Source: Reichenbachiella versicolor (GTDB lineage Bacteria > Bacteroidota > Bacteroidia > Cytophagales > Cyclobacteriaceae). From it: 64,000 bases of DNA. A model generated the notes under the pieces. The model saw only the letters and a program-made list of their open reading frames with translations. It had not been told where the DNA came from and did no database searches. The stretch is from positions 310,001 to 374,000 of the forward strand of contig NZ_QFZQ01000001.1 in assembly GCF_003171675.1 (NCBI RefSeq), given 5' to 3'. A program made the position numbers and the translations under genes. Below, one piece after another: positions 5,451-18,473 of the stretch (its first letter is position 1; each line of letters opens with the position of its first letter).

Positions 5451-6071
5451 ATGAGACGCCCAAGAGCTAGTAAGCAGTATAATATGTTGAATCATCTCAA
5501 GAATGTCATGACATTCAAGGAGAAGATGGGTGAGGGACACGCTAATATTGTTTATTATGGTAAAGTGACTCAACCTACTATCGATGGGATTACAGATATG
5601 ATGGAGAGTCAGATGAAGGATGAAGGTCTTCCTCGTCAGGCGACTAAAAGAGTCTATCATGTAATGATTGAAGCCTTACAAAACATTTGTAAACATGCAG
5701 ATAGTACTGCAGAATATGCCTCTAGTGATTTACAGACGGGACTTGCTCAAGAAGGGATTTTTGTAATAGGAAATAGTGATACAGAATACTACGTTACTAC
5801 TGGTAATCAGATAGAAAATGAGAATGTAGTTCGTCTTAGAGATATGTTGGATCATATCAATGCCCTTGATAAAGATGGATTACGAGAGCTTCACAAGCAA
5901 AAGATGCAAGAAGGATCAATTAGTAGTGTAGGTGGGGCAGGTCTTGGATTTATTGATATCAAGAAAAAAACAGGAACAGAGTACGAATATTACTTTGACC
6001 CAATGGATGAAAAATATTGTTTTTTCGTTTTGACTATTCGAATACTCAAAGAGTCAGTAAAGGATTTTTAG
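5451..6071 (+). CDS. SiaB-like atypical GHKL protein kinase (DUF6272)
   Basis: 206 residues, cytoplasmic. The GHKL ATPase N-box is seen in VMIEALQNICKHA (about residues 67-79) and the glycine-rich lid in GGAGLGFIDIKKKTG near residue 162. There is no H-box, so it is not a classical histidine kinase. The layout matches SiaB-type kinases, which in Pseudomonas phosphorylate the small protein SiaC on a hydroxyl residue. A SiaC-like gene follows 131 bp downstream, supporting the pairing. The ATG is preceded by a purine-rich GTAGGAGT. The assignment is by motif and neighbourhood. Confidence 0.82.
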   Translation: MRRPRASKQYNMLNHLKNVMTFKEKMGEGHANIVYYGKVTQPTIDGITDMMESQMKDEGLPRQATKRVYHVMIEALQNICKHADSTAEYASSDLQTGLAQEGIFVIGNSDTEYYVTTGNQIENENVVRLRDMLDHINALDKDGLRELHKQKMQEGSISSVGGAGLGFIDIKKKTGTEYEYYFDPMDEKYCFFVLTIRILKESVKDF

Positions 6072-6094
6072 TCTTTTTTTGTTAGGGGTTTTTC

Positions 6095-6127
6095 CTACAA
6101 GATATTAGGTGTTTTAACGTCTTGTAG
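6095..6127. promoter_or_regulatory. Inverted repeat between siaB-like and siaC-like genes
   Basis: CTACAAGA (6095-6102) is perfectly inverted as TCTTGTAG (6120-6127) with 17 nt between. It lies in the 131-bp gap of the two switch genes. The arms are not followed by a T-run on the plus strand, so it is more likely an operator or RNA structure than a terminator. Its function is unknown. Confidence 0.35.
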
Positions 6128-6202
6128 AGCAATTGTCGTTTGGATAGATTTGTTCTTGTATAATGCGTTAAATTACGAAGAAGTTCATCTTTAAAAATCG
6201 CT

Positions 6203-6607
6203 ATGGACGGTTATATTATTAGGTCTACTGGCTCTACTCCTATGGTTGAATTCAATCCAGAGGAAGGATATTTGGACATCACCGGAGTTTCTACTCCTGA
6301 TGATCCACTAAGCTTTTATGGGCATGTATTTAGTCAATTACATAAGTTTGAGAAATATAAGAATGAAGTTATTACTATCAATTTTGCATTGAAGAATATG
6401 ACTGGTTCTACTACCTATATTTATATTCTTGTAAAAAAATTGATTTCTCTGGCTAATGCTAATAGGCAGATAGTATTTAATTGGTTTTATGAAAAGAATA
6501 ATGAAAAAATACTAGATGCAGGAAAGGAAATAAGTCAACACTATAATCATCCATTTAAATTTGTAGGGGTATATAAAATTAAACAGCAATTAAGACAGGC
6601 TAGTTAA
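6203..6607 (+). CDS. SiaC-like regulatory phosphoprotein (DUF1987)
   Basis: 134 residues. The protein has the DUF1987 pattern: N-terminal PMVEFNPEEGYLDITG, SxPDDPLSFY, then a central NMTGSTTYIYIL (about residues 65-76) at the position where SiaC of Pseudomonas carries its phosphorylated threonine, followed by an alpha/beta C terminus resembling STAS-like partner-switch proteins. It is the expected substrate of the SiaB-like kinase upstream. In Pseudomonas, SiaC activates a diguanylate cyclase, but no GGDEF domain is encoded anywhere in this window, so the output here is unknown. The exact phosphosite (S69, T70 or T71) is inferred. Confidence 0.82.
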   Translation: MDGYIIRSTGSTPMVEFNPEEGYLDITGVSTPDDPLSFYGHVFSQLHKFEKYKNEVITINFALKNMTGSTTYIYILVKKLISLANANRQIVFNWFYEKNNEKILDAGKEISQHYNHPFKFVGVYKIKQQLRQAS

Positions 6608-6710
6608 TTGGGTTTTAATCTTATTATTACTAATTTTTAATTCATCATGTCGTCTGATTATCACTGATTTTAAAGTGTTTGGACGTTAAATATTTCAATC
6701 AAGTCAAAAA

Positions 6711-8006
6711 GTGATCAAAAAATCAATCCGCTTACTTTTAATATTTGGACTTTTTGTCCAACCAGCCTTAGCTGCCACCACAGCTGCTTCATCTGAGGCA
6801 GGAGGTATCAATATTTTTATGATACTCTTTGCTATTGCCCTATTTGCAGGAATAGGTGTTTCTGTAATGTTCTTTAATAAAACACAGAAAGCAGAGGAAG
6901 AAAGAGATAAGGCTATTAGTCGTGAAAACTTAGTCAAGAATAAGTATGAGCAGCAGGTCATAAACTTAAAAGAGAAAGTAAAATTAAAACATAATCAAGG
7001 TAGGGAAGTAGTTAAAAAACTTCAAGCATCTAACGACCAAAACAAACAACTGCGAGTTAAGTTTCAGGCAGCATACGATGAACTAGCTCAAAAGTTTAAA
7101 GAAGCGCAAGAGAGTTTGAAAAACGTAAGTCAAGAAACAGGCTTTCAAGAAGAGTTGGATAAAGTGTATCATAAACTTGAAGATGCACAGGCAATGATTC
7201 TTCATGCTGAAAAAATGTCATCATTGGGTCAGTTAACTGCGGGGATAGCTCATGAAATTAATAACCCCGTCAATTTTGTTTCGAATGGTATCAATACTCT
7301 TAAAGAGAATTTTGAGCAAGTAGGAGTATTCATTGATAATTATAGGAGCGTTTGTGAACAAGAGTCTCTAGAGGATGTTAAAAAGTATTATAAAATACTT
7401 AGAAGTGACGATAAAGAGTATGATGGTATTATTCAATCAATACAAGAATCGTTAGAAGATGTGGATTATGGTACCAATAGAATTACAGAAATTGTTAATG
7501 GATTGAGAATTTTCTCAAGACAGGATGAGCTAGATGTAAAAGAGTCGCATGTTCATGATATTGTAGATAATGCTCTTCTAATTCTTAAACCGAAATACAA
7601 GAAAAAGGCAAAGGTTTTAAAGGAATTTGATCACAATATGCCAACTATCAAGTGCCTACCTGGACAACTTAACCAAGCACTGGTGAACTTAATAGGTAAT
7701 GCATCAGATGCAATAGACTTTAAAGGAACTATTACTATCCGAACTATCAACAAAGATGATGACAACATCGAAATACAAATCAAAGATGATGGTAAAGGGA
7801 TGTCAGAAGAAGTTCAGCGAAAAATATTTGATCCATTTTATACCACCAAGCCAGTTGGTAAAGGAACAGGTCTTGGTCTTAGTATTACCTATGGTATAAT
7901 AGAGAAACATGGTGGTACTGTAAAGGTAGAAAGTGTAGAAGGAGAAGGAACTACATTTTTCGTTTCTTTACCAAAGAAGATCAAATTGAAAAAAATCAGA
8001 AACTAA
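6711..8006 (+). CDS. Membrane-anchored sensor histidine kinase with long coiled coil
   Basis: 431 residues from a GTG start. Residues 1-22 form a signal-like segment, a second hydrophobic segment spans about 33-55, and residues 58-165 are a long Lys/Glu-rich coiled coil with no recognisable sensor fold. The H-box EKMSSLGQLTAGIAHEINNP places the phosphorylated histidine at 181. The ATPase domain has an N-box (NLIGNASDAID, N330), G1 box DDGKGMS (359-365), F-box FDPFYTTKP and G2 GKGTGLGLS (383-391). All catalytic elements are intact. It is followed after 17 bp by the response regulator, its likely partner. Confidence 0.9.
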   Translation: MIKKSIRLLLIFGLFVQPALAATTAASSEAGGINIFMILFAIALFAGIGVSVMFFNKTQKAEEERDKAISRENLVKNKYEQQVINLKEKVKLKHNQGREVVKKLQASNDQNKQLRVKFQAAYDELAQKFKEAQESLKNVSQETGFQEELDKVYHKLEDAQAMILHAEKMSSLGQLTAGIAHEINNPVNFVSNGINTLKENFEQVGVFIDNYRSVCEQESLEDVKKYYKILRSDDKEYDGIIQSIQESLEDVDYGTNRITEIVNGLRIFSRQDELDVKESHVHDIVDNALLILKPKYKKKAKVLKEFDHNMPTIKCLPGQLNQALVNLIGNASDAIDFKGTITIRTINKDDDNIEIQIKDDGKGMSEEVQRKIFDPFYTTKPVGKGTGLGLSITYGIIEKHGGTVKVESVEGEGTTFFVSLPKKIKLKKIRN

Positions 8007-8023
8007 AAGAAACTTAATTCAAC

Positions 8024-9304
8024 GTGGCGCAAGTACTCAACAGAACTTATAAGGTAGACAAGGCTAAGAAATACAAGGTTTTGTATGTAGATGATGAAGA
8101 AGTCAACTTGCGAATTTTTGAAAGAGCTTTTAGAAACTATTACGATGTTCATACTGCTATATGTGGTGCAGATGCTATTGAGTTACTGGAATCGGTGCCT
8201 ATTGATTTAATAATGACCGACCAAAGGATGCCTAATATGACAGGTGTTGAACTACTTCTAAAAATTGTTCCTAAGTACCCTAACATAGTTAGGATGATAA
8301 TGACAGGATTTAGTGACGAAGAGGAGATTTTAAGAGTGGATGATGAAGTAGGTTTAGATAGGTTTATGGTCAAGCCTTGGAATAAAAATGCTTTAAGAGA
8401 GGAATTTGACAGGGCTCTTAAACTTAGAAAAGGTTCATTGCAAGAAGAACCTAAGAAGGAGGAAGAGGATTACAAAACTCAGAATGAATCATTAGATCTT
8501 TTAGAGTCTACGATGTCTCTTGTTGAGACTCCTGAAACAACCGCTTTAGATAATGAAATTAATGATTTAGTAGAGTCTAACAAGGCAAAAACAAGACCAG
8601 AATTCATAGAAAGCGATACTAATGATCTTTTAAAATTAAAAGAGTCATTGATGCCTATACAGCAAGAGTTAAAGCTTTATATTGAAGACTCTATTATTAT
8701 TTATGATCATCAGTCTGTTAATAAGAATGGTTACTGGTTTGGTGATTTGAATGACCGTGTTGTACTAGCATCTTTTCATTCTAAAACAGATTCTATTCAA
8801 GCACTAACATTGAATACTTTTATTGGTGTAATGATGACTGAAATGGTGTACAAGGAAAAGAACATTAAGTCAGATGAACTTTTGAGAGAATTGGCTAATC
8901 GAATTAATGTTCGATATGTTAATAGAGGTAAGAAAATGACTGCTACAATTGATATTGCAATTACAGTAATTGATAAAAAGAACGAAATATTATCTATGTC
9001 TGGTGCCAATCATGATTTGTTCTTTTATGATCGTTCTGATAATTTAAAAATGATTAAAGGATCTGGCGAATCATTAGTACCAGGAGAGGATGTTGAGTTT
9101 GTAACAAATAAAGTAAGTTTTAGTGCTTTGGATGAAGTTTACTTTATTCCAAAAAATATTGCTAAAGAAACTAATGATGGAACTTACAATCCAAAAGCTA
9201 TTGAAATGTTCTTGAAAGATATTCATAACTATCCAATGAGCATGCAAGAAAGGCTCTTTGATGAGTATAATTATAAGAGTGTCATAGGACTTAGACTTGT
9301 ATAA
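8024..9304 (+). CDS. Response regulator fused to a degenerate PP2C/SpoIIE-like domain
   Basis: 426 residues from a GTG start. Residues 17-135 are a receiver domain with acidic pair D23/D24, phosphoacceptor D66, T94 and K117. An acidic linker (about 138-205) leads to a domain resembling SpoIIE/PP2C phosphatases: SGANHDLFFY (327-335) fits the family's AGHNPPLL stretch. The two metal-binding aspartates appear lost: the usual DVSGHG position reads ASFHSKT (249-255) and the usual TDGVTE position reads IPKNIAK. It could be a pseudophosphatase or SiaA-like partner for the nearby SiaB/SiaC pair, under control of the preceding histidine kinase. The alignment is by eye. Confidence 0.78.
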   Translation: MAQVLNRTYKVDKAKKYKVLYVDDEEVNLRIFERAFRNYYDVHTAICGADAIELLESVPIDLIMTDQRMPNMTGVELLLKIVPKYPNIVRMIMTGFSDEEEILRVDDEVGLDRFMVKPWNKNALREEFDRALKLRKGSLQEEPKKEEEDYKTQNESLDLLESTMSLVETPETTALDNEINDLVESNKAKTRPEFIESDTNDLLKLKESLMPIQQELKLYIEDSIIIYDHQSVNKNGYWFGDLNDRVVLASFHSKTDSIQALTLNTFIGVMMTEMVYKEKNIKSDELLRELANRINVRYVNRGKKMTATIDIAITVIDKKNEILSMSGANHDLFFYDRSDNLKMIKGSGESLVPGEDVEFVTNKVSFSALDEVYFIPKNIAKETNDGTYNPKAIEMFLKDIHNYPMSMQERLFDEYNYKSVIGLRLV

Positions 9305-9305
9305 A

Positions 9306-9971
9306 ATGTCTCTAGGGAAAAATATTAATAAAGGTGAATCAAAGCCTGCAGAGGTTCAACCTTCCGATGCAGAAAGTGCTGTTCCAGCTACAACATCAAG
9401 TATGGACGCTACTAAACTTCAGGAAATAAACGAATCTGTAGCTGCCGTTAGTGCTAGTGGTGGACAAGAAGCATTAAAAGCCCAAGAACAAGATATGCTT
9501 GAGGCTGCGATTCTAGATTCTGATCGTGTCATGCTTATTGTATTTCCAGTAGGAGAAGAAGAGTATGCTATTTCTATTGATGATATTAGGGAAGTCGTTC
9601 CTATTCCTCCAATTGCTATTATTCCTCAAGTGCCCGATTATGTGAAAGGAGTAGCGAATGTTCGAGGGAATGTATTAGCAATTATTAATCTCTTAAAGAT
9701 GTTTTCTAAGGCTGAAGAGGTTAAAGAGAAAGCAGACCCAAAATTTGTTTTGGTTATTAAGAGTGAGGAAATGCAATTCGCAATTAGTTGTACTACGGTA
9801 CCCAATACAATGATCGTATCAAAAGCCGAGATAGATCCTCCTTCTAATATTATTAACAACTCTGGTCAGATTTCTGATTATGTAAAAGGAATTATCAAGA
9901 GAGAAAAACGAATGATTGTTTGGATTGATATTCACGACTTGATGGCTCGAACTGAGATTACAAGCGAATAA
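9306..9971 (+). CDS. cheW: CheW-like chemotaxis adaptor
   Basis: 221 residues from the ATG at 9306; an in-frame TTG at 9297 overlaps the previous stop and is less likely. The first 70 residues are a low-complexity, Ala/Glu/Ser-rich tail. The CheW domain begins near residue 75 ([25 protein letters not shown]) and contains [17 protein letters not shown], which fits the receptor- and CheA-binding beta fold. It would link the adjacent MCP to CheA. A second CheW lies in the same operon at 12953. Confidence 0.9.
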
Positions 9972-9981
9972 GAAAAAAACA

Positions 9982-12159
9982 ATGAGACTGGAGATAAATA
10001 AACAAGGATTAGTTTTAAGTGGAGCATTGTCTGTGTTGTTATTGACGTTGTCTATGTTTTTCTACTTTTCTACAAAAAAACTTGTGAACTCTGGTATCAA
10101 TGAGCAACTAGTATCAGATTTTCAATATATTTCAGTTACAGGCCTAATATTAGGATCTTCGGTTTTATTAATTTCTTTAGTTCTATTTATTAGATCATTA
10201 ACTAGTACAGAAGGAGGAAATGCTAGAATTAATGAAATTAAAACTTTGATCGATAAACTTTCCATTGGAGAGCTAGAAGGAAATTCCGATTTAGTTGAAG
10301 ACAATACAGAATTGGGTCGCTTATCAGCTTCAGTCAATAGGCTGATTAACGATATGTATAAAAAGGTAGAATTTTCTAAGCAGATTGGTTCTGGCTTTTT
10401 AAATGCAGAGTTTGAGGTGAGTAGTGAAAAAGATGAATTAGGGAATTCATTGGTTTTGATTAGAGATCATCTTTCTAATTTAATAAACGAAACACGAGAA
10501 GTTATCTGGTTGGTAGGAGATCAGGGTGAGCTTAATACAAGAGTAGAGCTAAACGACAAACAAGGTGTTTGGAGAGATATTAGTGGGTCAATTAATAGTT
10601 TAATAGATTCTCTATCTAAACCTTTATTTACATTCAATTCCTTGTTCAGTAAGTTGTCATCTGGAGATATGACTCAGCGTTACAATGAAGAATCAAAAGG
10701 AGACATTAAAAGAATGGCTGATAATTTAAATATTGCCTTAGCTAATGTAGATGGTCTTCTCTACCAAATCTCAAAAACAGCTGTAACAATCGACGATGCC
10801 TCTGAAGAGATGCTTACTTCTAGTCAAGAAATGAGTACCAATACACGAGAGATAGCCTCAGCTATTTCCCAAATGAGTCATGGTGCACAAAATCAAGTGA
10901 CAAAAGTTGATGAGTCATCTTTGTTGATAGAAACAATTCTTAGAACTTCCAATGATGTAGGAGATAGAGCTGAAAATATTAACCGCGCTGCTAAGCAGGG
11001 AGTAGAGACTAGTGAAAGAGGAATGAAGATGGTTCATAATATGGTAGAAAATATGGACGATATAGGTCAATTTTCTACTCAAGCTAACGACTCAATCAAG
11101 GTTCTCACTGAAAGGTCTCAAGAAATAGCTCGTGTTCTAGGGTTGATTACTGAGATAGCTTCCCAAACAAACTTACTTGCTTTAAATGCGGCAATAGAAG
11201 CTGCTCAAGCAGGGGATGCAGGTAGAGGGTTTGCTGTCGTAGCTGAGGAAATTAGAAAACTGGCAGAAGATTCCCGAAATTCAGCTAGAGAAATCGAAAC
11301 TTTAATTAATGATGTTCAAATAGATACAAATGCTGCTGCTAAGGCCATTACCACAATGAATCAAAGTGTGAAAAACGGTCAAGTCACATCTAAACAAGTA
11401 GTTGAGGCATTCGAAGATATTTCAAAGTCTTCAACTGACACATTGAATTTTTCAGAAGGAATTTTAGTAAGTACAAAAGATCAGACAGAAGGAATTAACA
11501 ACGTAGTGACCATAATAGAAGGAGTTGTAGTGATAGCTGAACAGACAGCTGCTGGTACAGAAGAAGTGGCTAGTAGTGCTACAGAACTCTCGACTGGAAT
11601 GGATGGGTACAATGATAAAATAACTGAGCTGACGCAAATTGCCGATTCTCTTAGAGAAGGAGTAAGTATGATCAAGATCTCGGGAGAGGCAGGTAAAAAT
11701 GATAAAATGTTCAAAATGAGGGAATATTATGAACGTGAGAAGTTTTTATTGGGTGCTCTATTAGATCATAGTATTGATTCAATTTACTTTAAAGATAAAG
11801 ACAGTAAGTTCATAAGATGGAGTAAATCCATGGAAGCATTGTTTGGGACTAGTAATTTAGAAGGTAAATCAGATTATGACTTTTTTGGAGAGCATGCTGA
11901 CTCATCCCGTGAGGATGAGGTCAAAATTATGGAGTCTGGTAAGCCAATGATTAATAGAATTCAGGTTGTGGATCTTAATAATGGTGAAGTTAAGTATGAG
12001 ACTACTACAAAGATGCCATTATTTGATTTGGAGAATCAAGTGATAGGTACTTTTGGGATTTCAAGAGATTTAACTAAGAATATGGTGGCTGATTCTAGTA
12101 CAACTGATCTTATTCAACAGCTTAAATTGAAAATAGATGAATCTATTCGCGAAGAATAG
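9982..12159 (+). CDS. Methyl-accepting chemotaxis protein with C-terminal PAS domain
   Basis: 725 residues. Two membrane segments (about 10-30 and 51-71) enclose only about 20 residues, so there is no periplasmic ligand domain. HAMP-like coiled segments follow. The conserved signalling tip near residues 390-425 includes [19 protein letters not shown] and [18 protein letters not shown]. After the signalling domain (from about 570) a PAS domain is appended: [17 protein letters not shown] and [11 protein letters not shown]. Sensing is therefore probably cytoplasmic, and the PAS domain sits at the membrane-proximal end of the antiparallel hairpin. It lies 10 bp after cheW. Confidence 0.92.
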
Positions 12160-12186
12160 AGACAAGTAAACCGGAGGAATTGAGAT

Positions 12187-12948
12187 ATGCCTAATACGAC
12201 CATTTATACAATCATTAACCAAAAAGGAGGAACTGGTAAAACAACTACAGCGGTGAATTTGAGTTGTGCAATTGCCAAGAAAAGAAAAAAGGTTTTGTTA
12301 ATAGATTTGGATCCCCAAGGAAATCTTAGCTACTGGTTAGGTTGTGGTGAAATAGAATTGAGTGTAGGAGATTGGATGCTTGGAGAGTGCCTTTTGGAGG
12401 ATGTAGCTATGAGTAGAGAAGGGGTTGATGTAATTCCATCGGATATGAATCTGGCAGATTTGGAAATTAATATTGCTAGTATGGATAATCGAGAAAGTCT
12501 ACTAAAAACTGCCTTAGGTCAGATTGAAGGTTATGATTATGTAATTATTGACTGTCCTCCCTCATTATCTTTATTAACAGTCAACGCGCTAACAGCTTCT
12601 AATAAAGTAATTGTTCCATTGCAAATGGAAGTGCTTAGCCTTCAAGGACTAGATCAAATTATATCTACTGTTGGCAAGATAAAAGACGTATTAAATCCAG
12701 ATCTTCAAATTGAAGGCTTATTACCAGTAATGGTAGATAATAGAAGAAAATTAAGTAAAGAAGTTCATGATCACATATCACAGAATTATGAAGTGAACAT
12801 ATTTAAGTCTCGTATCCGTACTAATGTGAGAATAAGTGAAGCGCCTTCTTTTGGTGAGAGTGTTTTGAGTTATTCTCCATCGTCAAATAGTGCAGCTGAT
12901 TATACTGCATTTGCTAAAGAAATTCTTTCATTGAACAAGAAAAAATAA
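12187..12948 (+). CDS. ParA/Soj-family ATPase of the chemosensory operon
   Basis: 253 residues, cytoplasmic. The deviant Walker A motif INQKGGTGKTTTAVNL lies at residues 9-24, Walker A' is LLIDLDPQGNLSYWLG, and Walker B is YVIIDCPPSL. No N-terminal DNA-binding extension and no parB gene are present, so chromosome or plasmid partitioning is unlikely. Its position between the MCP and second CheW suggests a ParC/PpfA-like role in placing or segregating chemosensory arrays; this is inference from context. A GGAGG-like purine tract precedes the ATG. Confidence 0.88.
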   Translation: MPNTTIYTIINQKGGTGKTTTAVNLSCAIAKKRKKVLLIDLDPQGNLSYWLGCGEIELSVGDWMLGECLLEDVAMSREGVDVIPSDMNLADLEINIASMDNRESLLKTALGQIEGYDYVIIDCPPSLSLLTVNALTASNKVIVPLQMEVLSLQGLDQIISTVGKIKDVLNPDLQIEGLLPVMVDNRRKLSKEVHDHISQNYEVNIFKSRIRTNVRISEAPSFGESVLSYSPSSNSAADYTAFAKEILSLNKKK

Positions 12949-12952
12949 GGAC

Positions 12953-13756
12953 ATGCCAATAGGAAAGAACCTTAAAAAGGATACGCTAATTCCTTCAGGA
13001 AAGAAGGTGAAGGCTACCAAGGCTGTAACTAAGAAAAAGACTACGCTTAAAAAGAAAACACCTGAAGCTACTCAGGAAATAGCTGAGCAAATAGAGGAAA
13101 AAGTAGTTCAGAGTTTAGAAGTCTCCGATGCTGAGAAGCAGGTAATAGATGAGGGAGCTCAAATTAGAAAGCAAATAAGCAGTGGTGAATACATTACTGA
13201 AAAAGAATACCAAGAAAGACAACGTCTTCAGGCTAAGTTTGATGATGAAATATTAAGTTATAAGGGTAAAGAACTACAGCTTGTAACATTTACAATTGGA
13301 GATGAACGATATGCTATTGACATTGATGCAATTAAAGAAGTAGTTCCAATACCACAGATAGCAAAAATTCCTCATGCTCCATTGTTTATCAAAGGAGTAG
13401 CAAATATCCGCGGTGTTATTATGGTCATTATTGACCTTGATTATAAATTCAAATACAAGACAGAAAAAGAAGACTCTGCTGTTTTGGCCAATAAAGAGGG
13501 TGTTTATACCGTAGTTATTAAAGGTTCCATTTTTAATGCGGCTATAATAGTGAATGAAGTTCCTACTACCTTAAAAGTAAGTGGAGATAATATGGTAAGT
13601 TCAGCCGGTCTATTAGGTCATACAGCATTAGATGAAACTTATATTAAGGGGTTAATCAAAACCGATATAGGAATGGTTATATATCTCGATATCAAGGAAC
13701 TTATAGAAGACAATGATGTAAAAGTAATGTCTCAAACTATCGCTCAATTAAAATAA
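12953..13756 (+). CDS. cheW: CheW-like adaptor with lysine-rich N-terminal tail
   Basis: 267 residues. Residues 1-40 are rich in Lys, Thr and Ala (KKVKATKAVTKKKTTLKKK) and residues 40-100 are acidic and helical. The CheW domain starts near residue 103 (QLVTFTIGDERYAIDIDAIKEVVPIPQI), followed by FIKGVANIRGVIMVIIDL. The basic tail could contact DNA, an acidic partner or the ParA protein encoded 4 bp upstream. ParA-family cargo adaptors often carry basic N termini that stimulate the ATPase, so a ParA-CheW link is a testable idea, not an observation. Confidence 0.9.
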   Translation: MPIGKNLKKDTLIPSGKKVKATKAVTKKKTTLKKKTPEATQEIAEQIEEKVVQSLEVSDAEKQVIDEGAQIRKQISSGEYITEKEYQERQRLQAKFDDEILSYKGKELQLVTFTIGDERYAIDIDAIKEVVPIPQIAKIPHAPLFIKGVANIRGVIMVIIDLDYKFKYKTEKEDSAVLANKEGVYTVVIKGSIFNAAIIVNEVPTTLKVSGDNMVSSAGLLGHTALDETYIKGLIKTDIGMVIYLDIKELIEDNDVKVMSQTIAQLK

Positions 13757-13765
13757 GTAAAGGCA

Positions 13766-14800
13766 TTGCAAAAAATTAAAGTTCTCATAGCTGACGATTC
13801 TGGCTTCATGCGTTTGCTGATTTCAGATATTCTTGCTGAAAGTCAGGTGATAGAGGTTGTCGGGACAGCTGTAGACGGAAAGGATGCGGTAGAGCAGGTT
13901 AAGAAAACTAAGCCTGATGTTCTTCTTTTGGACATGAATATGGGTGACTACAGTGGATTGTACGCAGTAGAGCGTATAATGGAAGAATGCCCACTGCCTA
14001 TATTGATTTTGAGTGCATTAGGGAATACCGATCTACAACCAATTTTCGAAGCACTTGATTTAGGTGCAGTAGATTATTTAAATAAACCGCAAAGAGGTAG
14101 TTCTAAACTTCGATTGATTGAACAAGAACTGCTTCATAAGATACAAAGTGTTAGTAGGGCAAATTTTGAAGTATCTAGTACCATTGATACTAGAATAAAT
14201 ACTAATACACACACCTTCAGCGCTGAGAAGAATTACGATATGATTGTAATCGGTGCATCTACAGGTGGACCATCAGCGATTGAAAAGGTTATCAACTCAT
14301 TGCCAGGAAATCTTGTAGTTCCTGTTATAATCGTTCAGCATATGCCTTCAAACTTTATTGGTTCTTTTGTTAAAAGACTAGACGGAATGACACCACTAAA
14401 AGTAATGGAAGGAAGAGCTAATGTTAAGCCAAAGGCGGGACAAGTAATTGTAGCTCCAGGGAATACCAATATGATATTGGAGAAAACCAGTTTGGGAGAT
14501 GTTAAAATAGGTTTTACTGATGAAGTGTATAGAGAGTATGACAAACCTTCGATCAATGCGTTGATGCTATCTGCAGCAGAAGTTGTAGGGGGGCGTACTA
14601 TTGGTGTAATTTTAACAGGAATGGGTAAAGATGGAATGCTAGGTATGAAGGCGATTCGTGATAAGGGAGGTTATACAATTGCACAAAGTCAAAAAACATG
14701 TGTAATTTATGGGATGCCTAAGGCGGCAGTTGCATTTGAAGCTGTCGAACGGTCGATTGATATAGATGAAATTGGAGGATTTTTAGTAAATAGTTTGTAA
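13766..14800 (+). CDS. cheB: Chemotaxis protein-glutamate methylesterase
   Basis: 344 residues from a TTG start 9 bp after the preceding gene; no suitable ATG is available before the receiver domain. Residues 3-125 are a receiver domain with D10/D11 and phosphoacceptor D56. The methylesterase domain carries the catalytic triad S165 (VIGASTGGPSA), H192 (QHMPSNF) and D289 (GMGKDGMLG). It removes methyl groups from, and deamidates, receptors. CheR is encoded at 17240 in the same operon, so adaptation is complete. Confidence 0.95.
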   Translation: MQKIKVLIADDSGFMRLLISDILAESQVIEVVGTAVDGKDAVEQVKKTKPDVLLLDMNMGDYSGLYAVERIMEECPLPILILSALGNTDLQPIFEALDLGAVDYLNKPQRGSSKLRLIEQELLHKIQSVSRANFEVSSTIDTRINTNTHTFSAEKNYDMIVIGASTGGPSAIEKVINSLPGNLVVPVIIVQHMPSNFIGSFVKRLDGMTPLKVMEGRANVKPKAGQVIVAPGNTNMILEKTSLGDVKIGFTDEVYREYDKPSINALMLSAAEVVGGRTIGVILTGMGKDGMLGMKAIRDKGGYTIAQSQKTCVIYGMPKAAVAFEAVERSIDIDEIGGFLVNSL

Positions 14801-14806
14801 AAGAAG

Positions 14807-16555
14807 ATGTCCAAAGAATCAGAATATATTGAACTCTTTCGTCAGGAAGCTCTCGAGAATTTTGAGCAGCTTAATAACCTGTTTACAGAGCTAGAAAAAA
14901 ATCATAAGAATCAGGATGCGATTAATTCTATTTTTAGAATTACTCATACACTGAAAGGAAATGCTATGGGGATCGGAGTTGATCCTGTAGCTAAACTGGC
15001 TCATGTCATGGAAGATGTCATGGGAGCAGTAAAAAATGGTGAAATATCACTGAATCAAGAGCTTTTTGATAACTTATTCAAGGCTAATGATAAACTTGGA
15101 GCGTTGATTCAGGCTTTAGAGACTGGCGAAAAAGTTAGTTTCTTAGGAATAAATACTAAGCTGAAGATTCTATTGAAAAATGCTCTAGAATCGGGTGCAG
15201 GGGATGGTGATGGTACTGGAGATTCAGCTGATGCTGAGAAATCTACTTCTGAGATCAATCAAGCAGAGTTAACCGAGGAGATGATTGAAGAGGAGGAGGA
15301 CGAAGTGGATGAAAGTGCCTCTCAACCAAGTATTACTTTTACTGAAGTAATTCAGATACCAATTAAGAAAATGGATGAGCTGATGAATCTTGTAGGTCAG
15401 CTTATTATTGAAAGAGATAGATTAATTAGTGTCAATACAGAAGCTGGAACTGGTACATCTCAGTTTGAAAGACTTCAAAGAATAAGTTCGGACCTTCAAT
15501 ACGCTGTAATGAATGCAAGAATGGTTCAAGTGGGATTTTTATTTAATAAGTTCCACAGAATTGTTCGTGACGTTGGAGCTATTGAAAAGAAAAAAGTAAA
15601 TCTTGAGATCAAAGGCACAGATGTTGAGATTGATAGAAATATTTTGAAAATCATGAGTGATTCGTTGATTCACTTAGTGCGTAACGCAGTGAGTCATGGA
15701 ATAGAGCCAGCATCAGTAAGAGCTGAACGCAATAAAAGTGATGTTGGTACGATTACTTTAAATGCACGATATGAAAAAGATAATGTCGTAATAGACGTAT
15801 CCGACGATGGTAATGGAATAGATGCAGAAGCTATAAGATATAGGGTTGTCAAAAGAGATATGATGACAAAGGCTGCTGCTGACGCCATGAGTGACGACGA
15901 TATAATAATGAAAATTTTCGAGCCAGGATTTTCAAATGCGGAGAAGGTTACAGAAATATCTGGACGAGGTGTCGGAATGGATGTGGTTAAGAGAGCTACT
16001 GAGTCAATAGGAGGTCACATTAGTCTTGATACGGTTGTAGGACATGGGTCTACAGTTTCTCTCCATTTGCCTTCGTCATTGGCATTGAAAGGTGCTCTAC
16101 TATTTGAGATTGGTACTCAGGAATACGCCATTCCATTGTCTTATACTAAAGCGGTCATTTCAGTTAATATTGAAGAAATTCATAAGATTAGCGATGGATT
16201 GATGATTAATTATCTCGATAATACAATTTCAATCGTTTTCCTTAAAGATATTATCAATGCGAAGAAACTATCTGAGCTAAAGAAGGATGGAGCTCTTCAT
16301 AAGACTTTTGAAGCTTTAGAAGATTCTACGGAATTGGATGTTATTGTAATATCTTACATGGGTAAAGAAATGGGAGTGGTAGTCGATAGATTATTACTCC
16401 AAAGAGAAATAATCGAAAAGTCTTTAGTTAAGCCTTTAGATAAAGTAAAAATGATAAGTGGCACTACTATTTTAGGAAATGGTAATGTATGCCCGATCAT
16501 AGATATTGTAGCTTTGATAGATATGCTATATAAAACCAAAGCTATAGCGGAATAA
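14807..16555 (+). CDS. cheA: Chemotaxis histidine kinase lacking the CheY-binding P2 domain
   Basis: 582 residues. The Hpt domain (1-115) has the phosphorylated histidine at 47 (ITHTLKGNAMGIG). Instead of a P2 domain, an acidic linker (about 130-180, with EEEEDEVDES) leads directly to the dimerisation helices (IPIKKMDELMNLVGQLI). The ATPase domain contains HLVRNAVSHGIEP, DVSDDGNGID and GRGVGMDVV. The C-terminal CheW-like domain begins near residue 425 (ALLFEIGTQEYAIPLS). Both CheB and CheY in the operon are candidate phosphoacceptors. The start is the ATG 6 bp after cheB. Confidence 0.95.
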   Translation: MSKESEYIELFRQEALENFEQLNNLFTELEKNHKNQDAINSIFRITHTLKGNAMGIGVDPVAKLAHVMEDVMGAVKNGEISLNQELFDNLFKANDKLGALIQALETGEKVSFLGINTKLKILLKNALESGAGDGDGTGDSADAEKSTSEINQAELTEEMIEEEEDEVDESASQPSITFTEVIQIPIKKMDELMNLVGQLIIERDRLISVNTEAGTGTSQFERLQRISSDLQYAVMNARMVQVGFLFNKFHRIVRDVGAIEKKKVNLEIKGTDVEIDRNILKIMSDSLIHLVRNAVSHGIEPASVRAERNKSDVGTITLNARYEKDNVVIDVSDDGNGIDAEAIRYRVVKRDMMTKAAADAMSDDDIIMKIFEPGFSNAEKVTEISGRGVGMDVVKRATESIGGHISLDTVVGHGSTVSLHLPSSLALKGALLFEIGTQEYAIPLSYTKAVISVNIEEIHKISDGLMINYLDNTISIVFLKDIINAKKLSELKKDGALHKTFEALEDSTELDVIVISYMGKEMGVVVDRLLLQREIIEKSLVKPLDKVKMISGTTILGNGNVCPIIDIVALIDMLYKTKAIAE

Positions 16556-16588
16556 ATTGGATAAAATACTAAACAGATAAGATAGAGG

Positions 16589-17224
16589 ATGTTAAGTAAA
16601 TGGACTGAAAAAGAAGCGCAAGTAGCTGATAGACTCATCAAGTATGGATTGGCCAAAGGGTCTTTAGCTTTAGAGATGGTAGTACAGTCCCCTGTTGTGA
16701 TTAAGCAAATAGAAATGGATTTATCTCAGGAGAATGGTATTACTTTATTTACCAACAAAGGGGATTCTAAGTGTCATTTGCTTCGTACGGATTTGGTAGG
16801 TGATTTAAAAGGATTTTGTCATTTAGTTTTTACTGAAGATGATGTGACTAAGATCCAACAAAAATGTCTTCCAGCTGAAGTACTTGAGCAGAATAATTCA
16901 CACAGTCGGATGATGAAAATGGAGTTCATGACTGAACTAGACAATATGGTGGCAGGTGCAGTCATTACCGAGTTGGCGAATTATTTAGAGCTTGAAATGT
17001 ACGGAAATGTTCCGGCACTAAATGTAGTTAATGCAGGAGAGGCTAACGCTATAATAACTAAAGAAGCCAACGAAGCGGAAGCTCCAAATGCTCTTAGAGG
17101 GATTATGCACGTTCCAGAACTCAATGTTTTTGTTGAGTTTATTTGGGCGTTTCAAGAAAGAATAATTGATTTAATAAAAAATTTCTCAGAGAGTGAAAAA
17201 TCTAGAGATTTAGTAGAATTATAA
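16589..17224 (+). CDS. CheC-like CheY-P phosphatase
   Basis: 211 residues. It has the CheC/CheX/FliY phosphatase signature: TELDN followed after exactly 22 residues by the proline in GNVPAL, that is ExxN-x22-P. The usual Asp or Ser four residues before the glutamate is a glutamate here. Only one copy of the motif is obvious, so it is CheC-like but probably single-site. It would dephosphorylate CheY and so end the signal. It lies between cheA and cheR in the operon, 33 bp after cheA. Confidence 0.8.
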   Translation: MLSKWTEKEAQVADRLIKYGLAKGSLALEMVVQSPVVIKQIEMDLSQENGITLFTNKGDSKCHLLRTDLVGDLKGFCHLVFTEDDVTKIQQKCLPAEVLEQNNSHSRMMKMEFMTELDNMVAGAVITELANYLELEMYGNVPALNVVNAGEANAIITKEANEAEAPNALRGIMHVPELNVFVEFIWAFQERIIDLIKNFSESEKSRDLVEL

Positions 17225-17239
17225 CCAACTAACTACCAA

Positions 17240-18055
17240 GTGATCGAAAGAATATCAGATGAAGAGTTGAACTCGTTAGTTCAGGCGATGAAAAATCGTT
17301 ACGATCTTGACTTTTCGAATTATGAAAAGAAGTCGTTTAAACGAAGTATCGTCCGGCTAATGATGAAACACAAGATGGAGTCCATGCTTGAGCTTTGGTC
17401 GCGAATTATTCGTGACAAACAGTTCTTTCTTGATAGTATAGATGACTTGTTAGTGAATTTGACGGAGCTTTTTCGTAATCCAGATGCTTGGATTATGATT
17501 CGAGATAAGATTCTTCCCGAATTTAGAAGTAAATCTTCCCTTAAAATATGGCACGCAGGCTGTTCTACAGGAGAGGAAGTATATACTATGGGAATCGTCC
17601 TCGAAGAGAAAAGATTATTGCACAAGGTGGAACAACTTGCTACAGATTTAAGTTCTACCGCTCTAGCAACTGCAATTAAAGGAGAATATTCTCTTTTAAT
17701 TTTAAAACAATATATGAAACCGTTCTTGTCGTTTTATCCGAACAAGAAAATGGAGAATTTTTTTGATTTCAGTGATAAATTTGCTGTTATCAAAGATACT
17801 TATCGCAAGCATGTTCGCTTTTTGAATCATAATTTGGTTCATGATGAAATGCATGAGAGATTTGATATTATCTTTTGTCGAAATGTAATGATATATTTCG
17901 ATGAAAATTTGAAAGTACAAGTATTAAAGATGTTTCATGAATGCTTGAAGCCAGGAGGGACATTAGTCATTGGGTACTATGATATAATGCCAGATGCTGG
18001 GAAAGAGATTTTTGACGCATTTGATGTGAAAACCAGAATTTATAAAAAGAAATAA
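17240..18055 (+). CDS. cheR: Chemotaxis receptor methyltransferase
   Basis: 271 residues from a GTG start. The N-terminal all-helical domain (1-75) contains LTELFRNPDAW. The SAM-binding domain has KIWHAGCSTGEEVYTMGI (about residues 97-114), and FDIIFCRNVMIYFDE marks the conserved acidic/aromatic active-site end. It methylates glutamates in the MCP. It lacks a C-terminal NWETF-binding region or TPR domain. Fifteen bases separate it from the CheC-like gene. Confidence 0.94.
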   Translation: MIERISDEELNSLVQAMKNRYDLDFSNYEKKSFKRSIVRLMMKHKMESMLELWSRIIRDKQFFLDSIDDLLVNLTELFRNPDAWIMIRDKILPEFRSKSSLKIWHAGCSTGEEVYTMGIVLEEKRLLHKVEQLATDLSSTALATAIKGEYSLLILKQYMKPFLSFYPNKKMENFFDFSDKFAVIKDTYRKHVRFLNHNLVHDEMHERFDIIFCRNVMIYFDENLKVQVLKMFHECLKPGGTLVIGYYDIMPDAGKEIFDAFDVKTRIYKKK

Positions 18056-18071
18056 CTAAATATTTATCAAT

Positions 18072-18434
18072 ATGAGCAAGAGAGTATTAGTAGTTGACGA
18101 CTCTATGTACATGCGTACTTTGATTAAAGATGCTTTGATCAAGGAAGGATTTGAGATAGCTGGAGAGGCTCCAAATGGCGAATCTGCTATTGATTTGGCA
18201 ATGGAATTGAAACCAGATTTAATTACTTTGGATAATATCCTTCCTGATATGATTGGTACTGATATTTTGAAAGTTTTGATGGATGAAGGTCTTGAGGCTA
18301 AAGTCGTCATGGTTAGTGCTGTAGGGCAGCAATCTGTGATCAACGAAGGTATAGAGCTAGGTGCGTCAGATTATATCGTAAAGCCATTTACTGCAGAGGA
18401 TTTGGTAGAGGTAGTTAAGAAACACGTAGGATAA
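18072..18434 (+). CDS. cheY: CheY-like single-domain response regulator
   Basis: 120 residues comprising only a receiver domain. Acidic pair D9/D10, phosphoacceptor D54 (ITLDNILPDM), S82 (VMVSAVGQQ) and K104 (YIVKPFTAED) are all present. It is the last gene of the chemosensory operon, 16 bp after cheR and followed by a terminator hairpin. Since no flagellar gene is present here and related organisms glide, its target is unlikely to be FliM; the gliding machinery or another regulator is possible. Confidence 0.93.
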   Translation: MSKRVLVVDDSMYMRTLIKDALIKEGFEIAGEAPNGESAIDLAMELKPDLITLDNILPDMIGTDILKVLMDEGLEAKVVMVSAVGQQSVINEGIELGASDYIVKPFTAEDLVEVVKKHVG

Positions 18435-18447
18435 GAAAAATATAATT

Positions 18448-18473
18448 GGAGTTGGTATAAGCTAGCTCCTTTT
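18448..18473 (+). terminator. Intrinsic terminator after cheY
   Basis: A 9-bp stem with GU pairs (GGAGTTGGT at 18448-18456 and GCTAGCTCC at 18461-18469) has a 4-nt loop and is followed by TTTT and a T-rich tail. It is 13 bp after the cheY stop and would end the long signalling transcript. Confidence 0.7.

Follow-up and report, generated by a model that had tools for sequence, protein, structure and literature searches.

A SiaB/SiaC pair precedes a complete chemosensory cluster

We analyzed a window of 64,000 nucleotides from the genome of Reichenbachiella versicolor (the whole stretch, to which all positions refer), in which a SiaB-family kinase and a SiaC-family protein lie in front of a set of chemosensory (che) genes. 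The original prediction had placed this pair on one strand with a histidine kinase (HK), a response regulator, an MCP, two CheW proteins, ParA, CheB, CheA, a CheC-like protein, CheR, and CheY, and each gene was found as placed (Table 1). The first two proteins matched the SiaB and SiaC chains of Pseudomonas aeruginosa (6kko_A, E=3.8e-8, and 6kko_C, E=1.3e-6, respectively; phmmer), while their scores with the equivalog models stayed below the cut-offs (64.6 bits vs 225 for SiaB, NF038264; 52.9 bits vs 150 for SiaC). The HK has a membrane anchor and a coiled coil, as judged by eye, and a sensor domain was not recognized in it.

Domain profiles placed the entire chemosensory core, consisting of CheA, CheW, MCP, CheB, CheR, and CheY, in this one cluster. 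Its CheA is the only protein encoded in the genome that matches H-kinase_dim; a CheA-like kinase lacking this domain is encoded on contig C19. Thus, the set is complete as had been proposed, with a weak CheC-like call, the homologue of which in another locus (L077) matches PF04509 under the cut-off. The genome also encodes the gliding motor protein GldM, and the bacterium is probably gliding. The absence of a GGDEF gene, noted for the neighborhood, holds for the whole assembly, in which this domain had no matches. A diguanylate cyclase was therefore dropped as the output of the module, and an unlinked enzyme of this type, to which SiaC might have been bound, was likewise not found in the genome.

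Table 1. Genes, domains, and sites of the block, with positions in the window.
Feature	Position	Strand	Basis or remark
SiaB-family Ser/Thr kinase (DUF6272)	5451..6071	+	PF19788 131.8 bits; NF038262 150.9 bits, cut-off 85
Glu74 codon of SiaB	5670..5672	+	aligns with Glu61, the predicted catalytic residue in P. aeruginosa SiaB
SiaC-family (STAS-like) protein	6203..6607	+	PF09345 84.3 bits
SiaC residues 66-71, M-T-G-S-T-T	6398..6415	+	P. aeruginosa counterpart L-N67-T68-S69-S
HK	6711..8006	+	HATPase_c, HisKA
Response regulator, receiver (REC) + putative pseudo-PP2C	8024..9304	+	Response_reg 67 bits; SpoIIE none at E<=1
REC domain of regulator	8078..8404	+	Asp, Thr, Lys sites present
Putative pseudo-PP2C domain of regulator	8630..9301	+	alignment; HHalign 97.9%, E=5e-13
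CheW	9297..9971	+	PF01584 101 bits
MCP (HAMP, signaling domain, C-terminal PAS)	9982..12159	+	PF00015 140 bits, PF18947, PF08448
ParA-family ATPase	12187..12948	+	PF13614 188 bits
Second CheW	12953..13756	+	PF01584 85 bits
CheB	13766..14800	+	PF01339 190 bits + REC
CheA	14807..16555	+	Hpt, H-kinase_dim, HATPase_c, CheW domains
CheC-like protein (weak assignment)	16589..17224	+	Pfam none; NCBIfam CheC E=0.0016
CheR	17240..18055	+	PF01739 146 bits
CheY	18072..18434	+	PF00072 91 bits
Terminator-like hairpin 3' of CheY	18448..18469	+	position only; 3 matches in region vs 6.0 in shuffles

The block is conserved from SiaB to CheY within the genus

The genus sample comprised eight genomes, namely that of the window and seven others among the CheA matches listed. 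The order SiaB-SiaC-HK-regulator-CheW-MCP-ParA-CheW-CheB-CheA-CheC-CheR-CheY was kept in all seven relatives (loci L123-L126, L127/L185, L129/L183, and L130/L184), with CheA identities of 63-68% and extra MCPs in some of them. Thus, the proximity of the pair to cheA is not a peculiarity of this genome. CheY is 78-91% identical in the seven relatives; its apparent loss from L123, L125, and L126 was an artefact of the longest-open-reading-frame gene caller, as tblastn finds it in all, and further small genes may have been overlooked by this caller. The genes to the left of the block are those for a chorismate-binding protein and an aminotransferase in five of the eight genomes, including the window, and two other genes in the remaining three, so that the left flank differs between two subclades of the genus. 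The right neighbor found in the window is present in three of the seven relatives, all outside the three-genome group with the other left genes. Because the order is kept while the flanks vary, the conserved block most likely begins at SiaB and stops at CheY.

From HK through CheY, the genes overlap or are separated by at most 33 bp, and the HK, the regulator, and the first CheW lie within 17 bp of each other or overlap. SiaB and SiaC had been described as standing directly before the HK; they are indeed collinear with it, but gaps of 131 bp between SiaB and SiaC and of 103 bp between SiaC and HK (61-267 bp in the relatives) make a shared transcript uncertain. Moreover, an unrelated left neighbor on the same strand lies 94 bp from SiaB (38-126 bp in the relatives). 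Because the gaps are wide and this neighbor is close, the pair does not have to be transcribed with the che genes, and either separate promoters or cotranscription of SiaB with the left gene is possible. A Bacteroidetes-type promoter pattern gave 18 matches across the window, none of them within the block and not above shuffled sequence, and sigma-70 promoter matches were at the level of shuffles. The siaB-siaC spacer contains an 8-bp inverted repeat, CTACAAGA/TCTTGTAG (6095-6102 and 6120-6127), with no T-run after it by eye.

Such distances would also be expected if the genes were mere neighbors, with the switch serving an unrelated function and sharing only its location with the chemosensory genes. 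We consider this improbable, given that the order is kept in all eight genomes although the left flank has changed and that the HK and the regulator are packed tightly against the first CheW.

The regulator combines an intact receiver with a PP2C-derived domain stripped of most motifs

The C-terminal domain of the regulator had been called PP2C-like. Its descent from PP2C was borne out by an HHalign comparison with a profile built from three canonical PP2Cs (97.9%, E=5e-13); however, Pfam SpoIIE gave no match at E<=1 in the regulators of the window, L123, and L183, and most of the metal-binding motifs are lost. In all eight genus members, SGDFYWF is replaced by N-x-NGYWF and DCTGHG by a SFHSKT-like sequence, SDG has disappeared, and a deletion has removed the terminal DD, whereas the same motifs are intact in a paralogue encoded on contig C16 and in the three canonical PP2Cs aligned alongside. 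The Asp of the GMD motif is kept in five of the eight and is Glu in three. The Asp, Thr, and Lys sites of the receiver are kept in all eight. Thus, the C-terminal domain looks like a pseudophosphatase attached to an intact receiver. The NCBIfam RssB models scored 35.6 and 34.5 bits (cut-offs 329 and 700) and matched the receiver only.

A second HK and REC-pseudo-PP2C pair is encoded elsewhere in the genome (L200:6227-10093; G000:C2 about 954.2-958.1 kb). Its motifs are lost as well, as read in the window's genome, and its PP2C-derived part was matched in all eight genus genomes.

The che-linked SiaC lost its phospho-motif, and SiaB kept its predicted catalytic glutamate

Pseudomonas SiaB is reported to phosphorylate SiaC at Thr68, and the PP2C phosphatase SiaA to remove the phosphate (PMC7647112, PMC8457831), with Glu61 as the predicted catalytic Glu of P. 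aeruginosa SiaB (PMC7647112). The N-T-S phospho-motif is lost in the che-linked SiaC of all eight genus members, in which N-T-S-S is replaced by M-T-G-S-T (five genomes) or I-E-D-S-[S/T] (three genomes). In contrast, N-[T/S] is kept in all 42 other SiaCs aligned (41 N-T and 1 N-S), including the four paralogues from the same genome; this motif table includes two edge-cut SiaCs that were omitted from the tree described below. Together with the motif losses in the PP2C-derived domain, this led us to reject an intact Pseudomonas-type SiaABC switch, and the phosphoprotein switch of the original prediction does not stand in that form. SiaB, on the other hand, retains the predicted catalytic Glu (Glu74) and the GGAGLG sequence in all eight genomes, which suggests that it may still phosphorylate something.

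The altered proteins do not resemble decaying ones. In four close pairs within the genus, the identities are 88-94% for SiaC, 90-99% for SiaB, and 73-93% for the regulator; between the window and G308, the values are 75, 72, and 47%, respectively. Because the proteins are similar though synonymous sites are saturated, SiaC, SiaB, and the regulator are under purifying selection. The same saturation is why dN/dS is not given for SiaB, SiaC, HK, and the regulator. In the window's genus and in one other genus (g101; L131, L132, L134), the che-linked SiaCs terminate in ...AS (RQAS, KQAS, AQAS, or AKAS), an ending absent from the other SiaC C-termini compared.

Related modules elsewhere in the genome

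The window's genome contains an unlinked module on contig C16 with the same order, consisting of SiaB, a membrane protein, an HK, and a REC-PP2C with intact PP2C motifs. The HK of this module is 38% identical to the che-linked HK over 366 amino acids. Because the order is the same, the genome is the same, and the C16 motifs are intact, the che-linked copy is most simply explained as a relative of the C16 module that lost its chemistry, and we infer that it derived by duplication from the C16 type.

The genome encodes three SiaBs and five SiaCs, the four other than the che-linked one having an intact motif; the 14 genomes searched contain 3-12 SiaCs each. Such paralogues are particularly abundant in G068, G341, G378, G200, and G316 (10-12 matches each), where they are partly in tandem. 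Elsewhere in the window's genome there are six SpoIIE matches, three of which were aligned (C16, C19, and C2 at 595 kb) and found to have intact motifs. The one on C19 (L205) belongs to an unlinked cluster of the kinase/PP2C type that resembles the tail of some che clusters described below.

SiaC and SiaB lie beside che genes in a few other genera

A search for co-location of the pair with cheA across Cytophagales had been suggested. Of 194 genomes of the order searched for relatives of CheA, 60 had a match, as did 83 of 390 genomes of the family, and 100 higher-scoring che loci from 96 genomes and 43 genera, with CheA identities of 39-68%, were annotated with profiles of the window's genes. 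In 13 of the 100 loci, extensions included, SiaB or SiaC lies close to che genes and on their strand, seven of these loci being from the window's genus; neither was found near che genes in the other 87 within the stretch examined. Some stretches were short and, because only 19 were extended past the initial fetch, SiaC genes lying farther out elsewhere could have escaped notice.

Of the 42 other genera examined, 4 have SiaC or SiaB next to che genes, in four different arrangements, one of them weak. In g101, three loci (L131, L132, and L134) have SiaC without SiaB between MCP and ParA, and three others (L136, L137, and L144) lack it. In g45 (L052), a PP2C and then SiaC directly follow CheR, and in g54 (L077), SiaB-SiaC-CheR-CheB lies upstream of CheY-CheA. 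The weak case is g151 (L209, G250), where a genome-wide SiaC search found SiaC 601 bp behind the PP2C of a che tail. By a Poisson estimate, which is rough and based on parameters that we chose, the probability of finding 4 of 42 genera by chance was 0.001-0.03, rising to 0.01-0.10 for 3 of 42 without the weak case. Thus, the co-location was found in all eight genus genomes, and its extension to other genera appears modestly above chance, which is suggestive but not strong. The 87 loci without the pair and this moderate estimate are in line with the mere-neighbor explanation, while the occurrence of PP2C and SiaC near che genes in further genera speaks against it.

When 48 SiaCs were placed in a tree, five changes of the che-linked label were needed, of which at least four are forced by starred branches, although long-branch warnings apply to the tree and several long branches leave individual placements unsure. 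Thus, we rejected a single clade of che-linked SiaCs. Because the tree forces at least four label changes, SiaC was probably recruited to che genes more than once.

The che tail mentioned above was found in 12 extended loci (L209-L220; g101, g128, g151, g161, and g153), which end in genes for a CheA-like kinase, a 155-amino acid protein, and a PP2C-like protein; 11 of them also have a CheY-like gene. The NIT, CheX, and SpoIIE domains of this tail come from a Pfam analysis of L209. In g128, the tail PP2C lost the motif-2 and motif-4 Asp in all four sequences aligned. Two further observations concern kinases and SiaB at other loci. In family che clusters without SiaB or SiaC in the stretch, a kinase scoring high with the profile of the window's HK is encoded just upstream of the MCP region (L160, L164, L166, L167, L170-L172, L175, L177, L178, and L181). 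The only SiaB of G051 lies in a second locus (L188:169-5780), where it ends a row of CheR, a receiver-less CheB, a GAF protein, and a GAF/PAS-PP2C, and a SiaC fragment is found there at the contig edge. The available parts of the open-licence PMC texts (including PMC8457831, PMC7647112, PMC7226468, PMC9239204, and PMC13070061) contained no link of SiaC or SiaB to chemosensory genes.

A possible binding switch at the chemosensory array

The reading that we favor, at somewhat less than even confidence, is that a partner-switch module was captured at the front of the che cluster and linked to the array, its phosphatase having turned into a binding domain and its SiaC having lost the phosphothreonine motif. 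In this scheme, the HK would phosphorylate the receiver of the regulator, and the state of the receiver would alter the pseudo-PP2C domain, which in turn would bind or release SiaC, perhaps also SiaB, much as the dead PP2C of RssB acts on sigma-S. Freed SiaC could then engage a coiled coil, either of an array protein or of the HK, as Pseudomonas SiaC grips the helical stalk of SiaD, which would make the chemosensory array its putative target; all of these protein contacts are ones that we infer. Such a switch would probably act through binding and not through the known chemistry, and the relatives retain the same altered state. A further-reaching version, which is more tentative still, holds that a catalysis-free, receiver-gated binding switch couples the HK directly to the array and that che operons of Cytophagales repeatedly drew in SiaC and PP2C parts as an extra layer of control.

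Several points weigh against a binding switch at the array. A single-sequence AlphaFold model of the pseudo-PP2C domain was unusable (mean pLDDT 36), and thus the fold assignment rests on the profile comparison. In Pseudomonas, N67, T68, and S69 of SiaC bind the stalk helices of SiaD (PMC8457831); because this surface corresponds to the lost motif, SiaC would need another mode of binding. The wide spacing of SiaB, SiaC, and HK means that they are perhaps transcribed apart. The SiaCs used for comparison are biased to high scorers, as 44 of 106 genome-search matches were read and 62, mostly low-scoring, were left out. The alignment register is uncertain in the M-T-G-S-T group, where one alignment pairs T and another G with T68. 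Finally, the SiaC loop still holds S69, T70, and T71, as well as T67 in subclade A, so that a shifted phosphosite is possible, and the catalytic Glu kept by SiaB suggests that some phosphorylation takes place.

These last points lead to the somewhat unlikely alternative that the module is still a phosphoswitch, in which SiaB modifies a neighboring Ser or Thr in the loop of the che-linked SiaC, the C16 REC-PP2C or the C19 PP2C removes the phosphate, and the pseudo-PP2C only senses. The intact catalytic motif of SiaB and the S-[S/T]-T sequence kept in the SiaC loop, both in all eight genomes, would suit it, as would the SpoIIE proteins encoded elsewhere, all three aligned being motif-intact. However, Asn67 is gone in all eight, the T68 position is Glu or Asp in subclade B under either alignment, and the phosphatase encoded with the pair has been stripped of most motifs throughout the genus.

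The acidic residues at the phosphosite in subclade B could also mean that the che-linked SiaC is a pseudosubstrate that occupies SiaB and thereby governs phosphorylation of the four canonical SiaC paralogues; the REC-pseudo-PP2C would free it, and the array would signal in or out via the HK. The presence of four motif-intact SiaCs and three SiaBs in the genome is consistent with this, and Pseudomonas SiaB and SiaC are chains of a single solved entry (6kko). Nevertheless, we regard this explanation as quite unlikely, since SiaB is encoded together with its own SiaC and the cross-talk between the paralogues is hypothetical.

To our knowledge, the use of Che proteins by gliding Bacteroidota is largely open, and we know of a SiaC-family target only in Pseudomonas. 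If the binding switch that we favor is correct and SiaC acts on the array, it would connect Ser/Thr partner switching to chemosensing in a defined and testable way. Should the dead phosphatase prove to be a receiver-controlled binder, a further PP2C turned adaptor would stand beside RssB, here inside a SiaC switch.

Comparison with known systems

In the HsbR-HsbA and BgrSTUWV systems, a phosphatase and a STAS-type partner feed an output protein, as the parts of the block might; unlike in the block, their phosphatases are active and their outputs are different. We know of no link between either system and a complete che cluster. The two are named in PMC8457831 and PMC6482189.

The chemosensory core of the block, comprising ParA, MCP, CheW, CheY, CheB, CheA, CheC-like protein, and CheR, is common to Cytophagales clusters. 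Unlike the block, 87 of the 100 loci have no SiaB or SiaC near che in the stretch examined, and 12 extended loci of five genera end in the tail of a kinase, CheY, a CheX-type protein, and PP2C.

Like SiaABCD of P. aeruginosa (PMC7647112, PMC8457831), the block pairs a SiaB-family kinase with a STAS-like protein of the SiaC family and has a third partner derived from PP2C. It differs in that its genome has no GGDEF match, it precedes a complete che cluster, its SiaC is without the phospho-motif, and its PP2C is mostly motif-less and fused to a receiver rather than to a HAMP/transmembrane part.

Escherichia coli RssB consists of a receiver and a PP2C fold without active-site residues (PMC7226468). 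Its partners are sigma-S and ClpX, whereas the neighbors of the regulator in the block are SiaB, SiaC, and che genes, and the RssB models match the receiver only. The likeness would thus be one of working rather than of sequence membership: the regulator, as judged from sequence, is likewise a receiver with a PP2C-derived domain lacking catalytic motifs, and that of RssB binds a protein. Taken together, the block has the appearance of a derived SiaABC switch that is tied to a chemosensory array and that, like RssB, would use binding in place of phosphatase chemistry.

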